Below the pieces are notes generated by a model that was not told the DNA's origin, searched no databases, and saw only the letters and a list, made by a program, of their open reading frames with translations. A DNA stretch of 64,000 bases from positions 372,001 to 436,000 of the forward strand of contig CM026427.1 in NCBI GenBank assembly GCA_014871385.1, read 5' to 3'. Position 1 is the first letter of the stretch, and each line of letters starts with the position of its first letter. Below, in pieces: positions 17,532 to 42,477 of this stretch. The position numbers and the translations under genes are program-made. The DNA is from Ceratodon purpureus. Lineage: Eukaryota; Streptophyta; Bryopsida; Pseudoditrichales; Ditrichaceae.

Positions 17532-19032
17532 GTTGAAGTTTGGCACGCACACACTTGGACTTGACTAAAGTGAAGACCATGTTGGCATAGGGAGGGACAC
17601 TCCAGTCCAGTCCAGTCCAGTCCACTCCGGTGCAGACGAGGAGCGTGGCCATCAACATCAGCAGCAGCATCATCATGTCATCATCATGCAGGCTCACCAA
17701 GACAGACATCCAAGGGAGGGAGGGAGGGAAGGACTAGGACTGGGACTAGGGAGGGAGGCTGCGCTCGTAATGGTAATGGTAATGGGCATGGGCTGCAACC
17801 AAGTTCCAACCGTGACATGAGGTGAAGGGACTGGACACTAGTGCACTACTGTAGTAGTAAGTAAACTTACTGCTTAGACTAAGTTATGATAGGCCCGAGC
17901 GGGAGCGGGAGGCGGAGGCGGAGGCGGAGGCGGGGCATGTGCGAACGTGAGGTAGCTTAGGAGAGCGTGGGTTCGCAGCTGGTTCGTTCCAAAGGCGCAG
18001 AGGAGGCCGGAGCGCCTCCGCACATGCTTTGGTCTTGGTCTTGTGCCCCTCCCTCGCTCCCTCGCTCCCTCGCTCCCTCGCTCCCTCCCTCCCTCAGCTG
18101 GCTGGCTGTCGGTATCCCTCCCTCCGAGTCCGTTGCCCCTCCAGGCTCCTGGCTCCCATCTCCCGGCGAACACTACTAAAACTCACAGTTTTTGGCGGGA
18201 TTCCCGCTTTCTTTGCTTTCTGCCACTTTCTCGTCGTCCCCTTCTTTCCTCTTCCCCAGGGCCCAGCCTCTCAGGATTCCCTGCAGTTTCGCCCCACCAG
18301 GTGGAGGTGTGTGTGTGTGTGTTTTCCTTTCTTCTCTTTGCTTTTTGCCCTTCTGCGCTCAGAGACTCACCCTCACGTGTTTCCTACGCTTCTTCAAGTG
18401 GTGTATGTATGGTTGGTGTCGTTCGGTGTCTAATTTTGTAGATCCGCCGTGGGGTGTTTTGGTGGACGGATATTTGGTTGTTCCTGAATTTTCATACACC
18501 ATCCCATTTAGAGTGGACTGGTGAAGCTGGTGGTGGTTGAGCAAAAATCGAGCGCAGGAAGTGAGGCTCCATTATTTATTTCCTCGTTTCCCGCCGTGGT
18601 GCGTCTCTTCAGCAATGCGGAGGAATTTTCACAGCAAGAGGACAGCACCAGTGAACTTGAAGCGGGGTACCGACGTGGTATTATGTAGTAGAGATTCCAC
18701 CAGCAGGGTTGGCAGAATGCAAATGAGGGGAGCGATGGAGGTTCACGACTATGGAGTTCTAAGTATCTTCGACGCACGCACAACGACGTGATCACATTCT
18801 TCTCCCTCCAGACGACCATTTTTCTTTTGCATTTTCTCAGGGTTTTTTTTTTTTGAAGGACTTCATCGACAGGAAATGCAACATAATCGACCCTAGGGCA
18901 GCGTCCGAATTTCTCGGCGAAGTTGCGAGGCAGCGAGCGTCACTCATCAGCAGTGTGCGAATGAGGGGGGCATAGAATTTTTTCCTGCAAGGAAATCAAC
19001 AGCTTGGGTTGCAAGCAGTGGGAACACCAAAA
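17532..19032 (+). other. Upstream region and 5' UTR of the ARO gene, rich in simple repeats
   Basis: The stretch holds (CCAGT)n at about 17601-17625, GGAGG runs near 17716, (GGCGGA)n at about 17909-17933, (CTCGCTCC)n at 18049-18096 and a (GT)n run near 18307-18321. GC content rises sharply here compared with the DNA to the left. The several open frames on both strands are Pro/Ser/Arg-rich products of these repeats and are not supported as genes. The 5' UTR of the downstream gene presumably starts within 18.2-18.9 kb. Confidence 0.45.
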
Positions 19033-22000
19033 ATGGAGGCGAATATAGAAGCGTACTTGACCCACTACCTGGACCTCAAGATGGAGGATCTGTTGGCCTT
19101 TCCACTGCAGGTGGCCGAGCTCGTGCGCAAAGGCGCGGAGGAAGCCGACTCGTTCAGACAGGAGTGCTCGGATCTTATCAACAAGGTGGAGAAGCTGATA
19201 CAGCTGCTGCGCAAAGCCGCTCGGTTCGAGAAGCTGACCGCGAATGCGGTGGGGTTGTACGAACGCCCCACGCGGCGAATCATGCTGGAGGTGCTCAAGG
19301 CGCTGGAGAAGGCGCTAGGGTTGGTGCGCAAGTGTAAGAAGAGCGGTATCATCAAGCGGGTGATGACCATCACCACTACCACGGATTTTCGGAAGGTAAA
19401 TCTGTGGTTGGATAGCTCAATCGGGGACGTCACATGGCTGCTCAATATCTCCTCAAGCGGGGACGAGCGGTCTGAGTTTGCAGGGTTGCCCCCCATCGCA
19501 TCCACAGACCCTGTATTGGCTCTTGTGTGGGAGCAAGTTTCCATTGTGCATGTGGGCACGCCGGAGGAGAAAGCTGACGGGGCGGAATATTTGGGTAACC
19601 TGGCCAAGGGCAACGAGCGGAACGTGAAGATTATCATAGAGGAAGGCGGGGCTGCACCTCTGTTGAGGTTGCTTAAGGAGGGCACCGTTCCCGGGCAAGA
19701 GGCAGCGGCCACTGCGTTGGGGCATTTGGCGACGGACAAGGAGCGAGTGCAGCAGTTGCGCAATGAGGGCGCGAGCAGCGTCTTCACCCACATTTTGAGC
19801 AGTCATTCTACATCCATGAAAGTCCAGGTAATATCAACACCTTCCAACACTTGCGAAGAGAGTGCTTTCTAGTCCTAGATGGCATCTTCAGATTTTGAGT
19901 GCCCGTTTGGAGTTCAATGCAGAGAATGGGGTTGACCATCTGCATCTTCAAGCTCAACTCAACGTTGCAGCTTCAAGGACGCTTTACAGAGGCTAGATTT
20001 ATGTGTTAGTGAAAGAGGGTGCAGTGTTGTGAAGATTGGTTTACATAATCAAGATGTTTCCCTTTCTGTCACTGTTTCCCGATTCCAAACCTTACTAACC
20101 CTCGCAAATGAGTATATTCTAGCTCTAGCTAGCAGAACGTAGGTTTATTTCTCGAGCGTCTATTTCAATCTTTATGGAGAGGATAGGACCATCTTTCATC
20201 TTCAGCCTCAAGTTCATTTGTGCAGTTTAACCCTCAAGGACGCTTCACAGGGCTAGGTTCTAGTGGGAAATATCGTTCTACTGTGGAGCTTAATTTGCAG
20301 AATTGAGATGTTTGTGTTGTTTCTTTGATATGATGCAGCTACAAGTGGCACGAGTAGTAGCGAAGTTTGCCTCGCTGGATGATGAAGCACAAGGGGAGCT
20401 TGCTTCACAGGGTGCTATTAGGTTACTGGTAGCCCTTCTTGCGCATCAAACCAACACAGTGGACAGCAAGGACGGACCAGTTTCAAGCATTGCTGCGATT
20501 GTGGTGAGGACGAATTTGACCCAACTAAGGAGCAGTACAGTTGTGAGGGGAAATAACCACCCCCACGCTCATAACCCCTATGCCAGCCCATCCAGTTCTG
20601 ACGCTCGGGTGCAACCCGTTGCAATGGCAGCTTCTTCAGTGATGGCTCGAATGCGAAGCAACAATCCACCACCCCTTACGGAGAATCCGAACTCTGGAAG
20701 AATGGTGCCTCTGCGGCAAGGCAGCCGAGCGCACCGAGACTTGGAAGATCCCGAGGTGAAGCTCGGGCTGAAGGTGGAGGCTGCGCATGCGCTCTGGAAA
20801 CTCGCAGCTGGGAACATAAAGAACTGCAAGCTTATAACCGACACATGCGCGCTTCTGTGCTTCGCCAAGCTGATGAAGCATAGTGGTGGGGAGCTGAAGT
20901 ATAACTCTGTCATGGCTGTAATGGAGATTGCGGCTGCTGCGGAGAGCGACCCTGAGCTCCGACGGGCTGCATTCAAGACGAATTCCCCTTCAGCGAAAGC
21001 TGTTGTGACACAACTCTTGGAAGAAATTATGAGCGAGAATGGAGAACCGGATCTTCAGGTAGGTGCTCTTTCACTTCATGCCAGCTAGCTACTCAGAATC
21101 ACCACCATCTTTAAATTTACATCCAGTACCTCTCTCAGGGTTGCGTCTTTTCTTTCTTTCTCTTTTTTCTCTACCTTCTTGGTATGATTAGACATTGTTT
21201 AATTGCAAAAAGATATAATACAAACGCACCTCCAGTATTGTAAGAGGTGAGCGGAGTTGGGCACCTCCATTAACCTAGTTTGGGCCCTGTGCTTTTTTTT
21301 TTTTTTTTTAAGTTCCTGGTGTGAGGGAAAAAAGAGAGTTAGCTTAAGTAGATATGAGTCATGGACAAGTGGGTGACAAAAGTCTTCTTCAGCCTTACCA
21401 AGAAGACTTTCCTCCTGAAAGAGAGACTGGGGTGAGACTAGTTTGACAAAGATTCTTAGTTCTCCAAGGAACATATTTTGATACTCACTGTTTTGGTCTC
21501 TGTTTTTAGAAATTCATTCCTTATTTCAACGGAACTGAGACACTCATCCTCAGTTTTGACAGGTCTTTTAAGGATAACTTCAGTGACAGAAGAATGAAGT
21601 CATTTTTTAACTACACCAATCAGCAGAGAAATGGTTCATTGCCCTTCTGTGTTACGGTTCGAGCAGTGGCTCAATTCACAATACCAAAACATTTTAAAGA
21701 GTTTTAGCTGGTTTTGATAATCAATTTTTTTATAAAGTGTTGCCATCGACACGAAAACTGTTGATGTTTGGCAGGTATCATGTTGCAAAGCGATAGGAAG
21801 CTTGGCTCGAATTTTCCCTGCACCGGCTGAGGCTCCCATCAGAGCTTTAACCTCGGCCTTAGCGAACCAGAACCAGGACGTGATTCAAGTGGCCACGGAA
21901 GCTGCTTCTGCTCTGTCAAAGTTCGCGAGCGACGAGAATTACCTGCACTTGGAGCACTCGAAGAACATTATTGCAGAAGGAGCGGTGGAGCACTTGGTTC

Positions 22001-24361: not shown

Positions 24362-24364
24362 GCC

Positions 24365-25894
24365 ATGGAAGAAGGGTACAGAACTTACCGAAGGCAAGCA
24401 CCATCATTGATGCCACGGAATCGGAAAGTAGTTTGGGATCGTGACGAGATTGGAGAAGCAGGCACATCCTGCGAATGCGTTCCTGTGAAGATGCATCCTA
24501 AGCTTTGGAGCAAGTTACCCCAGCATATTGTAGACTGCATCTACGCCAGAGTTCCGTATGTGGATTTCTTCCGACTCCGATGCGTGTGCCGGCGATGGAA
24601 TGCCCTCCTCCACTCTCCTTCCTTCCTTGAAGAGAATCCCAGTGCGCCATTTCCAGAGCCATGGTTCCTGGTCATCACCAAGCAGTTCGTCCGTTACCTC
24701 ATTTTCGACTCGAAATGCAAAAGCTGGATTTGGATCCGTCTGCCGGGATTCTTCAGGGGAACATGGACAATTGGGAGCCACGATGGCCTTCTGTACGCCA
24801 TCCGGAAGGAAAACAACGTTCTAAAGGTTGGGGTGTTTAACCCTAGAACAAAGATTTGGAAAGAGCTACCTCCGTTGCAAAAGCCTGACATACACGTCCA
24901 CTTGCACGGGATGGTGAAGCAACACCGAGAAGCGGAGGACTACAAGCTCGTCATGGTGACCAACCCAGATCAGTCCATGCGAAGTGTGCACAGCACCACC
25001 CAAGTCTACGACTCGACCACGGATTCATGGTCTCTCTCAGCTGCTAAAATCCCTAAAGGTCGCAATGGCCTCTTCTGCGAAAACACAGTCTGCTGCAACG
25101 GAGCTTTGTATGCATACAACGAGCAACCCAACGACCCCGACGACCACGAGCCATCCTTCGACGGCCTCCTGACCCTGGACTTAGAGAACGACACTTGGAG
25201 CTGGGTAGCCGGGCTCTTCCCCTGCGAGACTCCATTGTTCCATGTGTTCGGCCTCAACATGAGCCGCCCCAGCCTGCACCACGGCCTCTTCTCCTGGCAG
25301 AGCCGCGTCTACGCGGCGGCCAAAAACATGCGCAACATCGGCAGAATCAGCTTCTCCATCTGGGAGCTGCAGGAGAGCCACGCCTGGAAGGAAGTGAACC
25401 AAATGCCCTGGGACCACTTCAACTGGCTCTCCGACGAGCAGGACTACCCCAACTATGGCACCGGCACAGTGCTGGTGCAACACAGCAGCTTCCAGTGCCG
25501 CAACTTGGTGCTCATCTGCGGCTTCTTAGAAGAGGAGGACCTGCCATTTAAATTCGTCTTGTATGACCTCCACAAGCGCGAGTGGCACCGCCTGGACGTG
25601 CCCCTGCTCCTCGGCCACGCGGGCTGCGTGGACCACAGCTTGGACAGCAGCAGCAGCACCACCACCACCACCACCACCACCGATAGCAGCCCCAGCGAGG
25701 AAGACGCCAGGTCAAGGTCGAGCTCCAGCAGCAGCACCACCAGCAGCACGACGGACCTCAGCAGCGACACCGATGCAGACACCAATGCAGATGAGCGTCG
25801 AACAATTAGCCAGCCCGCCGCAATTAGCCAGCTCCATGAATCAGAGTCATTTGATCATGATATTACTCAACGCCCAGCTGCGCCTCATCAGTAA
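24365..25894 (+). CDS. F-box/kelch-type protein (LCR/HWS-like)
   Basis: An intronless 509-residue protein. Residues 48-88 are a typical F-box (LWSKLPQHIVDCIYARVPY, then FFRLRCVCRRWNALL). Residues 95-420 look like a kelch-type beta-propeller: spaced Gly/Trp-rich strands such as VGVFNPRTKIWKELPPL, TQVYDSTTDSWSLSA, LTLDLENDTWSWVAGLF and FVLYDLHKREWHRLDVP. It should act as the substrate receptor of an SCF ubiquitin ligase. The closest families I recall are the LEAF CURLING RESPONSIVENESS and HAWAIIAN SKIRT type. Unusual is the C-terminal tail from residue 423: long Ser/Thr runs coded by AGC and ACC triplets, then an acidic Asp/Glu stretch. The start is the first ATG after the uORF stop; the next in-frame ATG would lose part of the N-terminal extension. 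Confidence 0.87.
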   Translation: MEEGYRTYRRQAPSLMPRNRKVVWDRDEIGEAGTSCECVPVKMHPKLWSKLPQHIVDCIYARVPYVDFFRLRCVCRRWNALLHSPSFLEENPSAPFPEPWFLVITKQFVRYLIFDSKCKSWIWIRLPGFFRGTWTIGSHDGLLYAIRKENNVLKVGVFNPRTKIWKELPPLQKPDIHVHLHGMVKQHREAEDYKLVMVTNPDQSMRSVHSTTQVYDSTTDSWSLSAAKIPKGRNGLFCENTVCCNGALYAYNEQPNDPDDHEPSFDGLLTLDLENDTWSWVAGLFPCETPLFHVFGLNMSRPSLHHGLFSWQSRVYAAAKNMRNIGRISFSIWELQESHAWKEVNQMPWDHFNWLSDEQDYPNYGTGTVLVQHSSFQCRNLVLICGFLEEEDLPFKFVLYDLHKREWHRLDVPLLLGHAGCVDHSLDSSSSTTTTTTTTDSSPSEEDARSRSSSSSSTTSSTTDLSSDTDADTNADERRTISQPAAISQLHESESFDHDITQRPAAPHQ

Positions 25895-26526: not shown

Positions 26527-28630
26527 ATGGAGACTTTGCGCGCAAAGCAGCTCGTGCTGTTGCAGGTGCTAATTCTCTCCGTCACGCTGCATCAAGCGGC
26601 GATTGATCTGGTGGGTGCTCTTGAACCGATGCAAATTGGGGTCGAGAGTTTCCAAGCGCCATTTAAAGATGGCACGCCTAACACCTTCATTGGCACTGGA
26701 CGTCAGATCGGTAGCTCCTTACTTGATGCCACGACGCCGGCTCTCATGTTTGGAGTGATCTCATCTGCACATGTGAGTGTAATTTGCGAGCAAATTGCAA
26801 GCACAGGCAGCCTCAGCTTCATGGCTGATGTCACAACTACTACATTGGGAAGCACTATCACACAAGCCTTGATCTCATCTCAAATCACTTCCACTCAAGG
26901 TTGCATGGAAGAGAGTGATGCTTCAGGAACTCAAGCTCTTATGGTGGATGATAGCGGCCGCCCAAGTGTGGTGAGTCGTGATCAGGCTTACCCAAATATA
27001 TATATATATATTTATTCATTTATATTGATTAACTCTTTCCAATTGGGAATCCGGAATTATAATGGAAATTAAGGAATAGATTAATCAATTGGTAATTCTC
27101 AAGCCAAAACATAAAACATGAATTGAATTTCGAATGTAATTTTTGTCATTGTCATGATTGTGCGTGCAGCTTGTCTGTCCCAGCAACGCAGGCTCGATAG
27201 GCTGCGCAATCTACCTAACGGGCGACGACATCACCAATCTCTACAACCAGGGAGTCCGGCGCCGGCTGCTTGGACGGAGAACGCTCGTGCATCATATGAG
27301 TTGCGCTGGCGAGGCCAAGAAGGGCGCCATTTCTGGAACCATTACTGGGGTCTTGGCTGTCACAGCATGCGCGGCTTTCACTGGTCCCATGGCACCGTTC
27401 TGCGCAGCTGGAATGATCGGTGCCTCTGCAGGGCTTGGCGCCGCAGCCAGTTGCGCCTCAAGCTGCTTCCCAGGTAACTCGAGGGATTGAGATAAATTTT
27501 CTAAGAATCTCTCCAAATTTGTAGCTCTCGTGTCGTGAATTTCGTCGAGAAAGATTGTAAGAGTTTGTGCTGTAAGCTGTGCAGGAGATGCCACAGTTTC
27601 TATGGCAGATGGCGGAGTGATACAGATGAAAGCTCTGGCGTTGGGTGACGAGGTGCATAATATTTTTGCACAACTTCAAATCTCATTATTTTTTTATGAA
27701 TCCTGATAATTTTGCAATGACGGTATTGTAGACTACAGCTATGGTGAATTTTGGCTGCAAATGGCATGCTTTTCAACTCACGGTGTATTTGCGCTCAACT
27801 GAATCGTCAATTCATTTTGTGCAGGTTGCTGTCAGAAAGCAAGATGGTCGTCTTGCGTATGAGGATGTCTATGCATTTGGACACAAAGATGCCTCTGCTA
27901 CTGCAACATTTGTTCGGCTCACTCTGAAATCGATCATCGCCAATATGTCGGACCCTGCCGTCGAAAGCAGGAGCTTAGAGCTCACAGCTTTGCATTTTGT
28001 CCCAATCTTGTCAGGTTGATGGATTATCACCAACAGTTTCTACCTATGAGTCCAAAACATACGAACTCGATACTTTGTCGTGACTTCCGAATAAGCAGAT
28101 CCAGATCGTTTTTTATACTAAAAAAGATTGAATTTGCAGATGTTGCAGAAACTCTCGTCTACAAGCGAGCTCAAGACATTATCAAGGGTGATAAAATGTG
28201 GACTCAGGGAGCGTTCATGCGTGCCGACAGAACAACTACCCATTTCCCTGTGTACGTCGTCACCGGGATTTCAGTACTCAAAAAACAAGGTCTATACAAT
28301 CCATTCACCCTGGGTGGCACCATCATCGTCAATGGCGTGGTGGCGTCCTCTCATAGCGACTGGTTTCTTGATAGCCTTTTCCAAGTCTTCAATTTGGTGC
28401 ACTGGCTGCCAGCGGCGTATCAGTTAGTTCTCTTACCTGTGCGAATGCTCTACTACTACCTGGGTAAGAGTTTGTACATCACCCTCTACCAGACATTGGA
28501 TTCTTTAGTGCACATGATATCCATGTTTGCAAGCAAGCATGGAGGAGGCATCGCTACCACAGTGGGCGCAGCTTCGGGCTTTGTTGCAATCTTATCAATG
28601 CCCAAGTTGACCATAAAATGGCAATTATGA
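26527..28630 (+). CDS. Hog-type protein with hedgehog/intein (Hint) autoprocessing domain
   Basis: Five exons, 26527-26970, 27170-27473, 27585-27652, 27825-28014 and 28140-28630, join in matching phases to 498 residues. Residues 1-30 look like a signal peptide (QLVLLQVLILSVTL). Residues about 31-205 form an unrecognised N-terminal domain with a few Cys. Residues 206-246 are Ala/Gly/Cys-rich and end SCASS. The Hint domain starts at Cys247 with CFPGDATVSMADGG and LALGDEV, the hallmark of hedgehog/intein self-splicing domains. Block B is present as LELTALHFV, giving T326 and H329 of the T-x-x-H motif. The domain closes with PFTLGGTIIVNGVVAS, like the hedgehog PLTxxGTIVVDGVLAS segment. A hydrophobic tail (410-498) follows. 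By family knowledge Cys247 should carry out an N-S shift and release the N-terminal part, perhaps with a lipid adduct. All expected residues are intact. Confidence 0.87.
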
Positions 28631-30717: not shown

Positions 30718-31607
30718 TCGACTCTGTAGGTTGGCGATGACCCCTCCGAGTGGGACATGTCCGAGTGGGAGTGGGAGTGGGAGTGGGAGTGGAGATGGCG
30801 GGACCGCGGTGGCCACGCCCACTCTAACTTATGTACTAGTCACTCAGTTAGTGAGGCAACCAACGCAAAGGGAGGGGGAGTGGCCCAGTGCCCAGTGCCC
30901 GCGCAACACCAACACACAGGGAGGCCCAGGCCCAGGCCCAGTTTGAAATCCAAATCCTTTCGCCCCACGCCCACGCCCACGCCCACGCCCAGGCTCCCGC
31001 CCACTGCCACTTCCGTTCGTAATCCATCCGCCCACGGCTTCCCGCGCCAAAACTACACTACTGTACAGTACCTACCTTACTTGCACTGCCCCCAAGCCCC
31101 AAGCCCCCCCAAGCCCCCCTTCCTTCCTTCCAGTTGCGCGGGCGGGAGTCTCTTCCCATTTCGAATTCCCTTCCCTTCCTTCCTTCTCTTCTCTGCAATC
31201 TACTCCGGCCCTAGATCCTCTTCTTCCACCTTTGAATCTACTCTAGTGTCTCCCACCTCAAGCCTCATGCTCATTCAAACCCTTTCCACTCATCAATACA
31301 TAAGTGAATACTAGTCTCTTCTGATTTGTATATTTTCTATATTGCTTTTATATTGCTCTTAGAGCTTTTGATGATCACATCCATTTTACAACATATTTCA
31401 TTTAAGATTGATCAAATAATGACTTTACACATGATAACTATTTTTTATTTTTTATTATTATATGTCACCCTAAAATTCAAAATAAATAAAATTATTAAAT
31501 TGGAATTTTGACCAATTGAAAAAATGTGGACAAAAACATCAAATGTTGAGATTAAACATGCCATAAATCAGGTGATAAACATACCAATAAAAGAATGTTG
31601 TACACGT

Positions 31608-31652
31608 AAAAAAAAAAAAAATAAATAAATAAATAAATAAATAAATAAATTT
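31608..31652. repeat. (AAAT)n microsatellite with poly-A lead
   Basis: A run of about 13 A followed by seven to eight TAAA units. Confidence 0.92.
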
Positions 31653-31846
31653 CTAGTACATCTTTGTGTTCAAATCTATTTTCTATCATCCAAAACTAAT
31701 ATATCAATGTTGATTTTTTGATAAATTTACATTTGTAATGATAAATTATGGAGTGTTCAATGGACCACTACAAATGTTGGCGCCAATATTTGTAGGCTTT
31801 TGGTACCAATACAAAATCATTTCTATAAGCCACTAAAACCTTATAA

Positions 31847-32775
31847 TTGACCTCTAAAGGATAAATAGCCCACCTAGGGCAATTTTGGAGTTTTTGCATG
31901 TACCTGTGACTTCAATTTAGATCGAGATGTTTTGAAACTTTTTGTAAATGTTTGTCATAGCAAGGATTTTGAGGAAATCTATTTTTTTAATTTAGAATTT
32001 TTTAAAAATAGTTATGGTATCCGAAGTGAAATGTTTTGTTCGGTGGGCAATTCGGGCAGCCACGCTAAATGCATTTGTTACCTTTGAGATTATTTCTATA
32101 AATACTTAATATTGTCATCTTTGAAATTTCCCAAAAAAACTTCTTTCAGTACAAAGTGTTCACTCCACAAAATATCAAAGTTTTCTCACCGTTTCGGGCA
32201 GTGTGCTAAGAAAACTTCTTCTTTCTTTCATAAAAGTTAGAAAAATTATTTTTTTAGGAATTTTCTATTTTTACTTAAAAGGATGGACATCAATCTTTAC
32301 TTTGATCATTAGGATTGAGACTTTTATGAAATAATGGAATTTCTAGGAAAGAAATATGAATTAGCATTCTATTGCATTCAACTCTATAAAAATATTGTTT
32401 TCAACATGCTACATTTTGTTTTTTGTTTGTAATTTTTTTTTATAAAATTAGCTAACTTAGTCTTCTTTTTCATGCACCAAAAAACCTAAAATCCATAGTG
32501 CAAAAAACCTAAGGGAAAAAAAGTTAGAGTCTGTAGACCTAATCAAAAATCGTGTCAAAAAAAATTGATTTCAAATTTCAATCGCTATAATCTTTTAATG
32601 TCTACAGTTGATTATGATGAAATTTATTGAGCTATCCACTACAACAATATAATTGAAGATCTTAAGGCTATAATTAGAGCATAATGATTTTTTAGTCATT
32701 CATGCTTTTTACATTGGAAATGGTAGTTTTGGAACGTTTTTTGGTGAAATATAGTTAAGGAACTTTAGGGGTTAA
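31847..32775 (+). mobile_element. TTAA-flanked piggyBac-like MITE, copy H
   Basis: The left border is TTGA then CCTCTAAAGG (worn), the right border ACTTTAGGGG then TTAA. Length 929 bp. The subterminal motif is present as GAAGATCTTAAGGCTATA near 32655, about 110 bp from the right end. The interior has no frame of note and is strongly diverged from copies A-C, so this looks old. Confidence 0.5.
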
Positions 32776-33829
32776 AAACATTGATCATCCACTTTGTCAT
32801 AATATTTATAGAACGAGAAGGATATTAGACCTTCTAAATAATTTATATTCCAATAGAACAATAATGTTTAAATTAAGTTGTTGTTATATTTTATATTGGA
32901 TTGAAAAATATCTATGATTGAGGGAAAAAGACATGAATGTGTGTCATGATTTACATTTTATGAAAATACACAGTAAATAATATAAAATCTTCACAATCTC
33001 CGAATGTTTGTTTGAATTAATTATAAGAGTACTTTGTTATATTTGAAAATTCAAAATTCAAAATAATTTTAAAATTTTCAAGATTTTCAAGAGGCATGAA
33101 TTAACTTTCATAGAAGATTAGTGTAGAATTGGCTCCAAATTCATTGGTACGTTGGTTGATTGGCGAACAGATATGGTTGTTTTAATACCGTAATGTAGAT
33201 CATATAACCGCATTTAGTCAGATGTTAATCCAAAGCAACATTGCTTCTATGAAAATTATCAGATACACTTTATTTGACACATTCTATGATTATCAATTTA
33301 ATTCTTTTGCTCAGTTGAATATGAAATGGAAAAATCTCATTTCTTAGATTTGATAGTTATCAGTTTATATTATTTTAAGAAAAATATTGTTTTTTCATGT
33401 ACTGCAACAGTGAATGTTTTGAAATTCTAAATAATATTTGCACACATTGAATTGATCAATATTTTGAAGTTACAATATCCACTTACAATATTTAGATGAA
33501 ATTGATACTCTAAAAACGTAATACCTTACCATTTTAGTTTATGTTAAGAAAATCATACATATAAGTTATCAAATGTATAAAACTATCATTATTTTTACTT
33601 GTCTTTTTCTTTAAAATTGATAGTTTTCACAACACCATCATCTACAGTTTATTTGTTTATTTATTTAAAAAAGTGTTCATTTGTCTTCACAAACTTATTC
33701 TACAAAAACCCTTACATGAACATTTTTTCATGGAAGGTGAAACATGCAAATTTATATACTCCTTGAACAATTATTTGTGTGTTTGAAATTCCTTAATTAA
33801 TTTCAATGTAAGATTTTAAGACAATCCAC
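32776..33829. other. AT-rich spacer between elements
   Basis: Nothing recognisable; very AT-rich without open frames. Confidence 0.4.
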
Positions 33830-34775
33830 TTAACCCCTAAATGTCCAAGGTGTTTTGGCACTTCCAAAACTGAAAATTGCAGATTTTGACCACCGTAAGA
33901 TGTATGGAAATTGATGTATGTTTCCAATAAAATATTCTTTTCTTGTATTTCTAACCGTAAGATCTTCAACCTAACTACTTGCACTAAGACCATGTCAAAT
34001 TTCAACTGTTGGATCTTTACCATTTGTGAGATTATATCGTTCAAAGTTTATTGTTTTTTTTTTTTGGTGGCTTTCCTCGAAAGGCATAGTCCAAATGGTG
34101 CCAAGGGAGACTTGATGATTGTTACTCCAAACATTTTGCTCATATTTTTTTCCATGTAGGTAACTAAGTTGGGCACCTCCATGCAAAATTTTGAAGACTT
34201 ATTTTGATTTTTTGGCCTTCATGCAAATTATTTTCCAAAAGCAGGTACAAAATCGTCAATATGGTAAAACTTAAATAATATTAAATGTTTTTGATTTGGA
34301 AAAAAAAGTGAACGGTGAAAAGTTACATCTATGAGTTTGTAAATTTTGGAAGAAATAGAAATTGAAAAATTTCTAAATCTCAAATTTTGACAATTTTTGA
34401 AAGGAAAAATTGTAAAATTACAGTAAACTTTAAAGCTTGTTCATGTAATTTTTGGAGGCTGCCCTTGTATAATTGGTAAACTTTTTGGCTTGAGTCACTT
34501 TGAATTTTGAGTAATGATTTGGTTATGAACATATTTTTTTTTTAAATTGAAAAAAAACCTAATTTTAAACAGCATGTTTTGGACTTGAAACCTAAAATTT
34601 CTAGATGAAGGTTCTAAAATTGGAATTTGACTTTGAAAAATTTACCATGTACACCTTGCGGTAAAGGGAGCATCCAATAAAAATAATAGGCAAAAATATT
34701 ACTTTTAACCTCTTCAACTAGGCTGCCCGAAATAGCAAAAACCCAAATCGGGTTTCCTGGACCTTTAGGGGTTAA
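33830..34775 (-). mobile_element. TTAA-flanked piggyBac-like MITE, copy C
   Basis: The left border is TTAA then CCCCTAAATGTCC, the right border GGACCTTTAGGGG then TTAA; 946 bp. The subterminal motif CCGTAAGATCTTCAACC lies near 33955, so the copy is reversed relative to A and B. The shared block CACCTCCATGCAAAATTTTG lies near 34174. It lacks the 400-bp insert of copy A at the equivalent position (about 34235-34265) and so shows the empty site. Confidence 0.72.
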
Positions 34776-35169
34776 TATATGATTCTTTATTCCTTCATAC
34801 AAACTGCATTTTTATGCATTTATAATTTTTTGTTTATACTGAAAATGTAAAATTTGAACTTATGTTTAATATTCAATGCAAAAATGTCTTGGCACATCTT
34901 GGAATTTTTATAAGTTTAAATGTTACTTTTCACAAAATATACATTTAACATGCAATTATGGTTTTTCTTAATCATTGAGATTTTTGTATTAAATAAAATA
35001 TGACATGAATACTTCAACAACATAGATTTTATATTTTTGATGAAAATGTACATTTGATTCTAAAATTAATGTAGGAAATGAAAATATAATTTAGCTCATC
35101 ATGAGAGTATTATATAATTTTGTGTATCTTTTCATGGTATTTACACTTTAATGTGGAATTTTTTTCTTA

Positions 35170-36098
35170 TTAACCCCTAAATGCACTGGCGACCAAAATG
35201 TGGTCGCAGCCTATTTTGGGCAGGCTGCTACGACGTCAAAAATAATTATTAAGTTTTGAAATTTTGTTTGTAGATTCTTTCAGTCATTATGTACATGTCA
35301 AGCTTTGTTTCATATGATTTTGATATGTAATGCAAAAGTTATAAAGGATTAAAGGTTCAAAATCTCAACGCGGGCAGCATAAAAAAAACTCAAATCTTTT
35401 TTTAAAAAATAAATTAAAATATCATCATTTTCTACTGATTTGTATGCACATAGAAAGCTTTGAGCCATGCCAATCCAATAAGTGAGGTAAGAGATATGAG
35501 AAGTCATAGTATGCGGGCAGTTTGGTCAACTCTTCATCAAAAATAACTTCAACTATTGATTTTGAACTTGATTTTAGCTATTTCTCAAAATTAAAAATTG
35601 GAAAAGTTTTTCGTTACTTGTTACATCATCTTCACCGTTGGAATTGACTATATCTACTTTTATGTGGACAAAATTAGTAGTTTAGTTTTTCCCTCTATTC
35701 TACATCTTATTCTAATTATTTATGGTTTGAGGATGAAAATTAAGGTTTAATGTTTTGAGATTTTTTGTGAAGAATCTCAAGTCATTCTTTAAATAGAATA
35801 TGCAATTGCCCATTCTAAAATTTTAAAGCATATTTTCTGAAAATTTGTTGAAGCCAAGATTTAAGTTTTTTGAAGGATTGGAAATAACTTGTCTTGGAAG
35901 TTTAAACATCATGATCTTGTGATTGGTTTGATTTCTGACTCTAAGAATTTGAGAAATAGCTTTTTGATGAGTTATTTATAAGATCCTACCGTTGAAATTG
36001 CAAAAGAATGTTATGAAATTAAAAAAATTAGTTTGCTTTACAAAGAGGTATGAAAAGAGAGTTTGAGCCTGAAATTTCCAAGAGCATTTAGGGGTTAA
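35170..36098 (+). mobile_element. TTAA-flanked piggyBac-like MITE, copy D
   Basis: Both borders are intact: TTAA then CCCCTAAATGC, and GCATTTAGGGG then TTAA; 929 bp. A weak version of the subterminal motif (CATGATCTTGTGATTGG) is near 35910. The interior contains GGGCAGC words seen in other copies. Confidence 0.65.
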
Positions 36099-36435
36099 TA
36101 TAATAATTTCAATTTCAGGATAATTGTCAAAAAGTAATTAAAACAATTCTTTTTCAATAGAACAACTTGGAAGATTGCTATTAATATTACTACCTTGTAT
36201 TTACAAAAATACCTTAATAGAGTGATGTGTAAATTTTTATTTTTTGATTATATAAATTTATAAATACATATGAAATGATTATATTATTGCGCCTTTGGCG
36301 CCAATGATTTGCGGTGGCTGATTAGCCATTGTATAATCTATGTTATATAAAAACAAAGGATTAATAATCCAATCATGGTAAAATTAATAATCCAATCAAA
36401 AAATAAAGATGATGAATAGAAATAAAAATAAAAGA

Positions 36436-37527
36436 TTTACTTTAAAAGGTCCTTCAAACCATATTGTGGTTGGAGCACTTGTCGAAAGGCTTTATTAAGC
36501 TTATATATATTTAAAGTTTTATTACTATGCATAGCTTTCCCATGTAGCTATTTAATGGCACGGTTTTGAAAACATTTAGAATTACAATGCAAAAGTTATG
36601 GATTTTAGAAGAATATGCTCTAAATTTGGAAGTATAGGCACTTGCAAAATAATAGGCCCAATATATATATTGATGTCATTTTTCATCCAACAAATACTTT
36701 TCATCTAAACAACCGTTTCTATTTAGAGGAATTGTCTTCATTCCTAAGATTTTGTCATCCATATGACAATTATCATCCATAATTCAATTTGCATTCAAAA
36801 TATTTTTTTTCCATCTACAAATTTTTTTATATCCAATCTTCATTTTCCATCCGGACTTAATAATACTCATCAACTTTGTATGATGTGGCAAGAGGTCCAT
36901 CCAAGTGACCAGATGTTCACAAAATTGCCTTTAGAAACTATAGGGGAATATATAACCATTTGCACTTAAAAATTCCAGAAATTTGAGTTTTACTCTGATT
37001 TCATTCAAACTTTTTGTGGAGCTTTCTCTCATTGAAATGAAGAAATAAGTCATTTAGAATTTCAATTGAACATGTTTAAATTATCCTTTTACTATTTTTA
37101 AATTTAGTAGAATGTAAGGCATTTTCAATATACCTCCTTTCACACAAACAATGATTTTTTCCCTTTCCAAAGCCCATTTCGGGTTCAAACTTTGTGAGAG
37201 TATACCTAACTTCCATACCTACATGAATTGATGACCTTTAATCGCTCAAATGTGTTTGCAAAGTATAGTTTTTGGGCATCAAAACTCTATTGTACTACTT
37301 AAGCAATGTAAAAAATACCTTTATAGTGACTTCAAAATTAATAATCCTTCAATTTGTATGATGGATTTTGCTCAAATTTGGTACACTTTTTTCAATACGT
37401 AGGTACAAGATCCTACAATTATGTATGGAATTTTATGTTTAGGTTTAGAAAAAAAATAGGTTGCTATAAGTAGGAGTATACTTTTTGAAGTTTTGGCTCC
37501 AAAAACACCACGACCTTTAGGGATTAA
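36436..37527 (+). mobile_element. TTAA-flanked piggyBac-like MITE, copy E
   Basis: The right border GACCTTTAGGG-ATTAA (37514-37527) is clear; the left border near 36436 is worn. The last several hundred bases, reversed, align with the start of copy G (for example CTAAAGGTC then GTG and GGAG in order), so E and G form one subfamily of about 1.1 kb. The subterminal motif ACAAGATCCTACAATTATG is near 37405. Confidence 0.5.
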
Positions 37528-40403
37528 TAAATGAACAAAAGGTAATACAAGAGAATTATATATGAAAATTTGATGAACTAAAGAGTACATGGTGCAGCCG
37601 CCCAATTCTTCAATCAAAGTAGCTCAAGGATCTTGTGGTAGAGTTGTGAATGGCTTTTGTACTTGAGCAATTGAAAAATGTTTTGGTGGACTAGCAATAA
37701 AAGAATATAGTAGAGCACCTCCACCAAGGAATTCCAAAGTGTAAAGGCAATTCAAAAAGAGTAGAAATGTTGTTTTGCAACGTGTTGTAACATCTACGTA
37801 ATAGAAATAGTTTAATACTGCAGTAATTAAACGCTGCGGTGGAGTAGAGTCTTGTGGTGCAATTATCCAACAACATTCTCGAAGGAAAAACCTTGACAAC
37901 GTATCATGTGTTAAGAGCTTTAGGATTCATGTTTAGGTTTGAGGTTTATGATTTGTCATTCAAAATTTAGAAGAAATCTTAGTAATGAGATGAAAAAACC
38001 TTTAGATTTAACCATTGTAGTTGACTATGACACTTAAACTTGAGAATGAAAATCAAACATAGGACTTTCAAAAGGATGTAAGGTTGCAAACAAGAAATCA
38101 TTTACAACTCTTTATTTAATATTGGCTAAAGAACATGCCACATCTTTCTTTTAATATTAACCAAAGAACATGCCACATTCTTCTTTCAATATTAATCAAA
38201 GAAGATGAGAAGGGAAATTGATGCACATGGTACACCATTCTTTCAATTACAATGAAAGGAATAAAGGATGCAGGAGATGATACCTATGTCTTACCTTCAA
38301 TTTATAAACTATATATACAAGGCATTGAACACTTATTTTATCCTCAAATAATAAATAAATGTTGTTTTATCCTCAAATAATAAAGAAATTTTGGGATTTA
38401 GGCATATGTCTTACGTGAAATCATAATGGAACATCATCATTGTTAGTCCTCCTTATTTTCAAGAGTATATTAAAAATATGTGTGAAATGAATTGATTTTT
38501 TTACAACTATAATACATATAATTTTATATCATTTGATACAATTTTTTAATGTGCTAAAATCCCAATTAGCCTACTTTTATGGAAGACATACATTTTTAAT
38601 AGAACCGCTATTTTATTTAAATTTGATTTTTTAAATTACTACTTTGAATCATATATTAAATGGTTTGATTGAGTTTATGCATGTAGTGTAGTTGATTCAT
38701 TAAGTAGGATCCAATAGCCAATTGTTATGAAGAAAATTGTCAAACCTTATTCATTGATGTTTATACAATCAACAAATATATTATGTTTTATTTTAGTGTA
38801 TAGATAGTTGATAGTTGAAATTCTAAATTGTGTTCCAAATTTCTAATGCCAAACTCCAAACTTGAAATTTCACAATTAGATCTAACACCTTAAAATAATG
38901 GGTGAACTAAAAAAAGATTTTTGATAAACTCAAATTTTAATATCAAATTTTGATTAATCATATTTATCATTGAAATAATGTTGTATTTTAATAATAAATT
39001 TAGGAAAAATCATGATTTTTCTTTACAAGTGCATCTCCTTACGTTCTTTTATATTTATCAATTAATTTGTTGTCTCCTAAATTCTACTTTCTATAAATTT
39101 GTCTACAAAGATTATTTAACACAATTGATCGAGGAATATTTATGTTTGTTGTAAAAACCAACTATAATAAAATGTTGCAAACGTATCTTTTTAAATTAAA
39201 AATAAGTTCATAAAAAATATACAACATCCTTAAAAAATACATTACCTTGATATAATGGCAAATGTATATTGATTGAAAACTATGGTTTTTTAATTATTTA
39301 TAAAAATAATAATAATTTCATTTCCAGTCGTTTATAATGGTGCTCAGTTAATAGATGTAGGCTTTAAGTTTGTTAATAATGCATTTACCAGTGTAGGACA
39401 TTGATTATGGAAAGGAAAACAAACAATAATGATGGCTTTTATCTATTGATGCACATAGGAATTTGATGCTTATTGTGGTAAATTCATTTATAAGAATTGC
39501 ATCATTTCTTTGAATATTAAATTCAACTATTATGCTTTCTTTAACCTCAAATTTTCAAATTAAAAATCACTTTTGAAAAACTCCAACATTTAGTAAAAGG
39601 CTAAATCCTCATTTAAATGGTGATAGGATCATTAATCTCAAAACAAGAACAACGGAGCCCATTTCTATGGTAAAAAGAAAGGTACTTTATGTAGTAGGTT
39701 AATGTTGTTTGACTCATACTCTAAGAGCACAAAGAGGTGAAGAGAGAGTAGAAAAGGATTGGAGGATTAGGGTTTTAAATGAAGACAGGCTATATCTCAA
39801 CTTTACATACTTGTGGTAATTGTGGTTTGAGAAATGTGTATGTGGTGGATTTTGGTGATTTGGTAGGTAGGATTTTGGTCACGGGGTGGTCACCTGAAGT
39901 GTGGATCCACAGATGGCCGTAGAGGAACACATAGATGGAACCGTGGAGTCACGAGTGGGGTGGAAGGACCATGGAGTGGGGCCACGGTTAGAGCGGAAGT
40001 CTAGAACGTTCGTTGTGCAGAGTCTCGAAACTGTGAGAGTGAAACTGTAGACAGTCGAGACGGAGAGTCGGACTAAGACCGAGACCAACGGAGAGAGAAC
40101 TTAGAGTTGGCAGGGAGGGAGGGAATGTGGAGGAACACGACCACATCCAAACCAAACTAGGACCTGGCTGTGTGTTTGTCTGGCAATGGCCATAGCCATA
40201 GCAGCCTCAGCTTCCCCCACCCCTACGCCCTCGCCCTTGCCCTCTTACTCTTGCACACACTCTCGTTGAATACTCACTCTCTTTCTCTCTCCCTCCCTCC
40301 CTCCTGCCACTCTCCGATGCCTCCCATCCTCCCATTCCGACTCTCTCCCTCTCTGTTCTTGTGTTTCTATTCCAGCAATCCTTCCATTGCTACCACGGCA
40401 AGC
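37528..40403. other. AT-rich intergenic DNA, no gene seen
   Basis: No supported frame on either strand until about 40.1 kb, where composition shifts to that of a gene 5' region (CT-rich from 40.25 kb) belonging to the RAR1 pseudogene. Confidence 0.45.
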
Positions 40404-42477
40404 CCTGTTCGATGTCAACGGATCGGATGCAATGCCTTGTTCACGTCCGACAATAATCTCAACAACTCATGTACCTACCACGCTCGAATAAGCTGTCCTC
40501 AGCAGCCTCTGTCGATCGACTCGCATTGAGTTTGGGTGGTGCGTGGACAAGTCTAGAGGAAGCTTCTTTTGTGTTGGGGAAAAAGAAACAGTTGGAAGGG
40601 GTCATTCTGAATAGATCGTAAACGGGAATTCGATTCAGTGTGTCGATTCTAGTGATGAAGGATTTTGCTTCGGCTTGGTCGTTTAGAATCGGTGCATATT
40701 TTGAAATTTATTTTGTTTTGAACTTTTCATAGAATTGAGTTCCTTTTACTCCCACGGCAACCTTGATTGTATCACAAAGCTGTGAAACTCAGACAATTCT
40801 GTTTTTTTCTTCCGAATTCTGATAGTTCAGTTTGTAGTGTTTGATTTTTCTATTTTTGCGAGAGTTCCTAAAGCAAGTGTAATCACATGACGAAATCTTG
40901 TAAATCCTTATTTTGCTATCGTAGTTTCTTTGGGATCAGGCACAAGTAGAGAAAATCAACGTGTTGGAGCCGTTCGAAGAAATCCTTTTGACGAAGTAAG
41001 CCTTATTTTGTGTGGTTTTTTCAAAGGGTTTGTTAATCAATTGACTTTTGGATTGGAGTATCCTGTGACATTTGTATTGACATATTTGCTTGTTTACTGG
41101 CGGTGGATTCTATCGTGGGTCGTTGCTTCAATCAGACATGCGGTAAGATTCTTTCTGCAATTGAGTGTGCAAATTTTTTCTCTATATTGGTTTCTAAAAG
41201 AGATTAGTAAGAGATCATTTTATTTTATTTTTAAAATTTCAAGTTTTTCTTGAGAGTCGCATTAGATAATATTTTCACGCTTTGCGCATATTTTTCATTA
41301 TATTTTCATGGGCTTAGAGGTCTTCATGTGTGGGGGGTTGCTGAAATGAGTTTTGTTTTTGTGTAGCCTTTATTTCATGATGGTAAAAAGAAGTAGAGTT
41401 GTTGCAAACAACGCAACTATGACTTTAGCAATTTTTTGAGCCTACCTGGGTATGTTTTACCATGCTCTCTATGCTCTCTAGGCCTTGATGTTATAGTAGA
41501 CGTTTAAGCACGTCATATTTATGATTTAGGGAAGTAGGGAAGTTCTAAGAATTTTAGACTCAAGAGTTCGCATTTTATTACATGTGGATCGAGATGCCCT
41601 ACTTGAACAGTCATTCATGCATTCAAAATGCCACTTTTGATCTTCCTTGGGCTTGATATTTGTAAATAGCTTAGTTACAACAGGTCTCTGGAACAACGTA
41701 GTGTAGTAATGGCTAATTAGTCGCAAGTGGGTAGTCCTGCGCAAGATTCAGCAAAAGCCGCATGTGGACCGTGTAAGCAAGGATTTTTCTGCTTCGAACA
41801 TAGTCTGTACAGTACATCTCCCTCGGTTTATCTTCGTTTGCTTGTCGCAACACTTTGAAATTGAGGTGTTTTTTCCAACTGCTTCAACCTAGGTCTCATT
41901 GGGTTTAATATTATTCAAAACTGATAATATTCCCCATTTGTTGCCATCTTTTGTTCGGTAGGTGCTCTGAAACCAACAGCAGTAACTGCCAAGCCATCTC
42001 CGTCCCCTGAACAGGTTCCCGTCTTCCAAAGTGCAAAACCAGTAAAAAAGAGTTTGCCTGTCAAGGTGATGGATATAAATGCCAAACAAGTATATAAACT
42101 CAAAGGTTGTGGCAAGTTGCAACAATTTCACAGAGAAGGATAACCATGAGACAGCGTGTTGTTACCACCCTGGCCCTGCTGTATTTCATGATCGTTTGAG
42201 AGGGGTATGATGCTTCATTCACCACGATTTCTTGCCAAACCATTTAATTTCATATCAAAATTTAGTAGCGTCAAGTAAGCTCGTCGTACCACCCTGATTC
42301 TGCTGGTTATTAATTACTTACATCCAGAATCTTGAAATGATAAGTGATACTCCTATTTCATTTGTTTTTGTGCAGTGGAAATGCTGTGATGTGCATGTGA
42401 AGGAATTTGACAAGTTTTTGGAAATACCTCCATGCACCAAAGGCTGGCATGATGCAAATCCTGAAGATGCAGCTTGA
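40404..42477 (+). pseudogene. RAR1-like (two-CHORD co-chaperone) pseudogene
   Basis: Five exon-like pieces follow the RAR1 order. 40404-40481 is the first half of CHORD-I (RCQRIGCNALFTSDNN, then CTYH). 41367-41453, after a TTTGTGTAG acceptor, is the second half (PLFHDGKKK, stop, SCCKQRNYDF): the Trp codon before SCC is TAG. 41962-42065 is the linker (ALKPTAVTAKPS...). 42098-42204 starts CHORD-II (KGCGK, then NHETACCYHPGPAVFHDRLRG) with a frame shift near 42110-42130. 42376-42477 ends it (WKCCDVHVKEFDKFLEIPPC, TKGWHD..., TGA). The first exon also lacks a donor after the CHORD-I half. Introns are retained, so this is a decayed gene copy, not a processed one. RAR1 works with SGT1 and HSP90 to stabilise NLR immune receptors. 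A working paralogue may exist elsewhere. Confidence 0.8.

Follow-up and report, generated by a model that had tools for sequence, protein, structure and literature searches.

A moss Hog gene encodes a putative self-processing secretory precursor with a candidate protease site upstream of its Hint domain

We studied a 64,000-nucleotide stretch of the Ceratodon purpureus assembly (362 Mb, 151 contigs), positions 372001-436000 of contig C7 (the window), and within it a gene that an earlier note had described as encoding a protein with a hedgehog-type Hint domain (a Hog protein). The gene is intact: five exons on the forward strand encode 498 amino acids (aa) in a single frame, from an ATG at 26527 to a TGA ending at 28630 (Table 1). 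Judging by sequence comparison, we consider it moderately likely that the gene encodes a working autoprocessing plant Hog precursor, which would mature in the secretory pathway by two cuts. It is a further member of a known family, whose core idea has been in print since 2008. According to the proposed scheme, a signal peptide would direct the protein into the endoplasmic reticulum, where the Hint domain would attack the Ser246-Cys247 bond to form a thioester, assisted by T326 and H329. A nucleophile would then resolve the thioester; most probably this would be the 3-hydroxyl of a plant sterol that the C-terminal region presents, His292 acting in the role of Asp303 of Hedgehog (Hh). The Hint part would be held at the membrane through a C-terminal hydrophobic segment. 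A separate cut at RRLL179-182 by a Golgi site-1-type subtilase would release a soluble N-terminal domain (NTD), while the hydrophobic four-cysteine linker with its C-terminal adduct would remain membrane-associated. The Hint cassette is modular: at the DNA level, a Ceratodon paralogue has it after an unrelated domain rich in cysteine. Cleavage, nucleophile and lipid attachment are all predictions of this scheme.

The window protein matched the Pfam Hint family PF01079 with E = 2.3e-24 (86.6 bits, cut-off 29.7), and a phmmer search of PDB matched Sonic hedgehog (E = 1.1e-8) and Drosophila Hh. The profile search thus upheld the reading of a hedgehog-type Hint in a plant, and Cys247 in CFPGDATV, LALGDEV, T326/H329 in LELTALHF and the closing GTIIVNGVVAS were all found as the earlier note had given them. 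In the structure model of the Ceratodon paralogue P0002 the Hint fold is Hh-like at high confidence, and Hh was favoured over inteins. Inteins and intein-like domains have the Hint fold in common with the window protein, and their first chemical step is the same as that of Hog proteins; an intein identity was rejected, as its structural score in the P0002 comparison fell below that of Hh.

We scored the catalytic positions in 31 Hogs taken from 40 proteins (the window protein, P0001-P0022 and P0033-P0049), leaving out P0001, which is the same gene, and eight proteins without a CFP/CFS anchor (P0012, P0038, P0040-P0042, P0046-P0048); the anchor of P0022 was placed by hand and P0003 is gapped at C400. 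All of them came from plant queries, several are near-duplicates and many are metagenomic, and no nematode Hogs were seen in this set. The nucleophile position (C258 of Hh) is Cys in 31/31, and in the TxxH block the first position is T in 21 and S in 10 while the His is kept in all 31. Two residues distinguish Hedgehog from inteins, D303 and C400. At the place of D303 all 31 Hogs have His, and among the eight anchor-less proteins P0038, P0046 and P0047 also have F-G-H there, the simple pattern having missed the place in the other five. Drosophila Hh with Asp changed to His at 303 is reported to be still active, with a wider substrate range. The C400 equivalent is Ser in the window protein. The claim of a complete Hint therefore stands for the nucleophile Cys and the TxxH block, which are intact, but not for D303, which is His, or for C400.

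The region beyond Hint is conserved and helical, contains many invariant residues (HS.WFLD, P..YQ..L.P.R) and includes a P-x-R like that in the first helix of the Hh sterol-recognition region (SRR), to which its similarity is short. P435 and R437 are invariant in 15/15 aligned rows, of which the P0001 row is the same gene. Nine of 10 NTD-bearing Hogs have a C-terminal hydrophobic segment above a common hydropathy threshold; P0008 is the one below it. These features bear on an alternative that we regard as rather unlikely, namely that Hint cleaves itself without transferring a lipid, water or a small thiol or amine resolving the thioester, and serves as a one-shot maturation protease that frees the N-terminal product. 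Such an activity would fit the retention of the first-step Cys, T/S and His in 31/31 alongside the replacement of the two Hh-specific residues, D303 and C400, as well as a post-Hint spacing unlike that of the Hh SRR; but D303 is in every case exchanged for His, which is reported to sustain sterol transfer in Hh, and the invariant residues beyond Hint are more than hydrolysis would be expected to require. Retention of an inactive Hint as a structural or trafficking domain seems to us improbable: the loss of C400 and the replacement of D303 could be cited for it, with nothing direct, whereas the core catalytic positions are kept, the paralogue fold is Hh-like with high confidence, and the gene gave a low ratio of nonsynonymous to synonymous substitution rates (dN/dS, 0.24-0.26; see below).

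The second predicted cut concerns RRLL179-182, which lies 65-68 residues upstream of the Hint cysteine, between the NTD and the linker. As the motif of site-1 protease (S1P) substrates we took R-(R/K)-x-L or R-(R/K)-L-x, with which RRLL179-182 agrees; R-(R/K)-x-L is the preference stated for AtSBT6.1/S1P in the accessible text of PMC7162652. RRLL is contained in P. patens RALF1 (PMC9933782, accessible part), and in N. benthamiana RRLL, RKLL, RVLL or RTLL is described from eight pectin methylesterases that undergo processing (PMC11494411, accessible part). In a set of ten proteins, R-(R/K)-(L/M/F)-L was found at the NTD/linker junction in 10/10, where 0.001-0.009 were expected per shuffled linker. 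When P0033 and P0034 were added to the same ten, bringing in Coccomyxa (RKVL) and a second Adiantum protein, R-(R/K)-x-L occurred at the junction in 12/12 NTD-bearing Hogs and outside it in 0/12, and half of them (6/12) have two non-overlapping copies. The Coccomyxa and second fern genes keep the motif at 34-41% identity; on these alignments it outlasts much sequence divergence. None of the six plant Hogs without the NTD (P0010, P0013, P0014, P0035, P0036 and P0037) has R-(R/K)-x-L upstream of Hint.

The linker that follows is hydrophobic and rich in Gly and Ala, and its four cysteines are kept in 9, 11, 12 and 11 of the 12 proteins. The low-confidence P0002 model forms it into two helices, and it may be a hairpin. 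The linker may instead span the membrane and place Hint in the cytosol; the four conserved cysteines would favour the lumen. In the same model the region of the protease motif has a predicted local distance difference test score (pLDDT) of around 40, which fits an exposed linker and equally a shallow alignment.

Several observations weigh against the two-cut scheme with sterol transfer. The Hh Cys400 is lost, its place being taken by T, V, A or S across the Hogs scored, and the residue before the Hint cysteine, Gly in Hh, is Ser in the window protein and variable in the family (G 13, S 9, A 3, V 2, D 2, K 1 and E 1 among the 31). Because the C-terminal spacing differs from that of the Hh SRR and a hydrophobic segment is present, the adduct may be something other than a sterol. 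Linker and NTD were both modelled at low confidence. Among 13 other Hogs whose upstream parts are unrelated, 6 have one or two scattered R-(R/K)-x-L matches; a single match is therefore not uncommon by chance, and what speaks for a protease site is its fixed place in 12/12. That count, moreover, comes from related proteins and not from independent events. These chance matches, together with a Gly-rich stretch adjoining the motif in several proteins, are also what would be expected if the dibasic motif were an uncut basic patch, binding pectin or membrane for example, and a single Hint cut freed NTD and linker jointly. We take this possibility seriously, at somewhat lower probability than a cut site: the motif is at the junction in 12/12 and nowhere else, its Leu would be superfluous in a basic patch, and 6/12 proteins have it twice without overlap. 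If RRLL179-182 is the second cut site, the earlier proposal of a self-processed N-terminal product needs qualifying, since the Hint cut alone may not release the NTD.

The N-terminus of the window protein begins with a hydrophobic stretch of about aa 1-31 that resembles a signal peptide, in agreement with the earlier note, followed by an NTD of ~140 aa. The NTD aligns with P0003 and P0008 and is thus the upstream region common to Physcomitrium and Selaginella Hogs; its four cysteines are kept in 12, 12, 12 and 11 of the 12 NTD-bearing Hogs, and its mean pairwise identity is 0.50 against 0.40 for the linker (10 proteins, P0003 and P0033 left out). The description of this domain as novel did not hold, as the accessible text of Bürglin 2008 (PMC2362128) already has a conserved upstream region, absent from other organisms, in Hog proteins of Physcomitrella and Selaginella. 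No Hedge domain was found, Hint being the sole Pfam family above cut-off in the window protein; no Pfam match below E 0.01 was obtained for any of nine NTDs, and an NTD profile gave nothing significant among PDB sequences (best E 0.17). In the P0002 model residues 21-150 have pLDDT values of 25-66 in blocks of ten, and the structure comparison was filled by matches to Hint (residues 229-385). Of the 10 matches to the NTD profile, 8 are short and come from contigs of 1.3-4.4 kb; the other 2 are Selaginella models that share one contig, and a piece of Hint is still present in one of them. Stand-alone NTD proteins were accordingly rejected, with no clear NTD-only gene among the 8,000 candidates scored.

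Up to 8,000 candidates were scored in each protein search. The first returned 22 proteins (E up to 0.1), with named members from Ceratodon, Physcomitrium, two Adiantum ferns, Selaginella, Marchantia paleacea and the red alga Pyropia, and the profile search returned 31 (E up to 1e-5), newly including the green alga Coccomyxa elongata. Physcomitrium P0003 aligns to 94% of the window protein at 46% identity. In this UniRef protein of Physcomitrium patens an insert of ~53 aa stands directly after CFPG, at the Ceratodon intron site, and is probably an intron retained in the database model; a second insert comes after LELTPLHFTVILSG. The Coccomyxa protein P0033 aligns through NTD, linker and Hint with 39% identity to P0002, its model being without ~26 NTD residues, and the NTD-linker-Hint arrangement was found in moss, liverwort, lycophyte, fern and Coccomyxa proteins. 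In three Selaginella proteins (P0013, P0014, P0035) the Hog stands behind signal-like and Pro-rich stretches only, without the NTD. A Hint tree was built from 22 of 27 candidates, as a regular expression dropped P0003, P0018, P0020, P0039 and P0045; of its 19 inner branches, 6 have good support and 9 are open. Branch support does not settle the placement of Coccomyxa, and old descent and horizontal transfer are therefore inseparable as sources of its architecture. No protein named from a seed plant was among the matches from the up to 8,000 candidates scored per search, which is weak evidence of absence; the accessible text of Bürglin 2008 (PMC2362128) reports no Hog from Arabidopsis and other higher plants.

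Ceratodon Hog genes with deposited full-length proteins lie on C7 (the window gene), C9 (P0002) and C12 (P0010). The Hint of P0010 (KC19_11G148500) is sister to that of the window protein (support 100/97), and its N-terminus is Cys-rich, with a sub-threshold Stig1 match (E 0.0024) and a match of E 1.6e-14, at 54 of the 100 bits required, to a Cys-rich family that takes its name from a myxobacterial protein. The Cys-rich coding stretch continues openly into the ACFPG of Hint (C12:13347000-13354000, about 2208-2780), with the next break after CFPG, where the window gene also has one. Because one open stretch codes for both parts, the fusion is genomic, and Hint was apparently kept through an exchange of the N-terminal module. 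Elsewhere in the genome, C11:13330000-13339900 contains two stretches like the NTD of the window gene, with stops, and C6 (110.5 Mb), perhaps the sex chromosome, has two short stretches resembling exon 4 of P0002. By their sequence, the C11 and C6 stretches are broken or decayed Hog copies.

The gene model of the earlier note, five exons with all junctions in phase, was confirmed: the 498-aa frame is interrupted by four introns, all GT-AG and of phases 0, 1, 0 and 1, with a G+C content (GC) of 0.29-0.40 against 0.475-0.609 in the exons. The exon layout is matched by two paralogues of the same genome, in which tblastn segment ends, used in place of base-level mapping, fall at equivalent protein places (4 in P0002, 3 in P0010); by the same segment ends P0002 apparently has one intron more. 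The deposited KC19_6G002600 (P0001) is identical to the window protein except that it lacks 32 residues, and since the sequences agree apart from this one gap it is the same gene. The missing residues correspond exactly to a 96-bp stretch in exon 1 whose GC of 0.52 is exon-like and which encodes GTPNTFIGTG, a motif common to other family members. These two features favour the longer model, which is probably more correct than the deposited one, the stretch having been wrongly called an intron; alternatively, it may be a true exitron. Disagreement among deposited models (P0001 lacking 32 aa, P0003 with extra stretches) might raise the suspicion that an N-terminal exon and Hint exons of different genes were joined in annotation, but exon 2 alone encodes both the linker and the CFPG of Hint and the same arrangement recurs in moss, liverwort, lycophyte, fern and Coccomyxa, which leaves such a chimera with a negligible probability.

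Comparison of the window gene with its C12 paralogue over 211 Hint and C-terminal codons gave dN/dS of 0.24 (NG86) and 0.26 (YN00), at a dS of 1.05-1.11 that is near saturation. These values suggest purifying selection and therefore disfavour a dead gene; with the frame intact as well, a pseudogene was rejected. As for the claim of a live gene, the intact frame, the catalytic residues and the suggested purifying selection are in its favour. Overall, what the earlier note observed is confirmed and its interpretation is partly supported.

The accessible text of Bürglin 2008 (PMC2362128) attributes a good signal peptide to the P. patens Hog, describes a replaced motif-J cysteine, and proposes self-processing to a secreted, possibly sterol-modified product. 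The window protein is like the moss and Selaginella proteins described there (pPp Hog, pSm Hog and pSl Hog) in its upstream region, its likely signal peptide (described there for P. patens) and the replaced Hh motif-J cysteine; to that account, as far as it is accessible, it adds the candidate protease site, the putative His general base and the linker cysteines. Beyond the accessible part of that paper are the uniform His, the junction R-(R/K)-x-L, the linker cysteines, the Cys-rich paralogue and the Coccomyxa architecture. Compared with the animal Hedgehog Hog domain (Drosophila Hh 1at0/6tyy), the window protein is without Hedge, has D303 replaced by His and C400 by Ser, and adds a C-terminal hydrophobic segment and an upstream candidate protease site. 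Nematode warthog, groundhog and quahog proteins have Hog behind varied secreted N-termini (PMC2362128, accessible part), like the two kinds of N-terminus in Ceratodon, a likeness of description and not of sequence; the NCBI names 'warthog protein 4/6' on Selaginella proteins probably reflect Hint only. The Kelch- and trefoil-Hogs of cyanidialean red algae (accessible parts of PMC9812998 and PMC13353863) are also non-animal Hogs of unestablished role, and their N-terminal domains differ. In the open-licence literature we found no function for plant Hogs beyond Bürglin 2008 and the algal work, though no search combined Hog with site-1 protease.

With the conserved candidate protease site and a His where Hh has its general base, 'may have added a sterol' becomes a concrete maturation scheme. 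If sterol transfer were true, plants would join the organisms with covalent sterol modification of a secreted protein, and how widely His occurs at position 303 would bear on the origin of the animal Asp. We also put forward, as a speculation of low probability, a two-cut relay in seedless green plants in which Hint would put a sterol on the C-terminus of the linker and an S1P cut at R-(R/K)-x-L would remove the NTD. The sterol would then be carried by a hydrophobic, disulfide-bonded hairpin peptide about 60 residues long, and not by the N-terminal domain as in animals, and Hogs other than animal Hedgehog would usually have His, not Asp, as general base.

Table 1. Features of the window gene, in window coordinates.
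Feature	Position	Strand	Remark
Exon 1, aa 1-148	26527..26970	+	likely signal peptide and most of NTD; C87, C126
96-bp in-frame GT..AG stretch	26611..26706	+	in exon 1; absent from KC19_6G002600; codes conserved GTPNTFIGTG
Exon 2, aa 149-249	27170..27473	+	NTD end (C151, C160), dibasic site, hydrophobic linker, CFPG with Hint cysteine
RRLL, aa 179-182	27260..27271	+	candidate site-1-protease/subtilase site; R-(R/K)-x-L
Hydrophobic Gly/Ala-rich linker, aa 186-246	27281..27463	+	C193, C215, C226, C243
Cys247	27464..27466	+	Hint nucleophile (= Hh C258), in CFPGDATV
Exon 3	27585..27652	+	Hint, ...LALGDE
Exon 4	27825..28014	+	Hint centre, FGHKD ... LELTALHF
His292	27882..27884	+	at position of Hh general base D303
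T326-x-x-H329	27984..27995	+	Hint block of Hh T326/H329, in LELTALHF
Exon 5, aa 336-498	28140..28630	+	Hint end GTIIVNGVVAS, sterol-recognition-like region, C-terminal hydrophobic segment, stop
P435-V-R437	28436..28444	+	resembles P-x-R of Hh SRR first helix
C-terminal hydrophobic segment, aa 471-490	28544..28603	+	candidate membrane anchor

Around the gene, no Rfam families or tRNAs were found in the 64-kb window, and no repeats of at least 60 bases within 31000-41500. A long AT-rich stretch of 27-30% GC occupies 32001-40000. An open reading frame with F-box and kelch-like matches neighbours the window gene on the forward strand (24362-25894), and another on the same strand, at 18976-19869, matches DUF7792 and an armadillo repeat.
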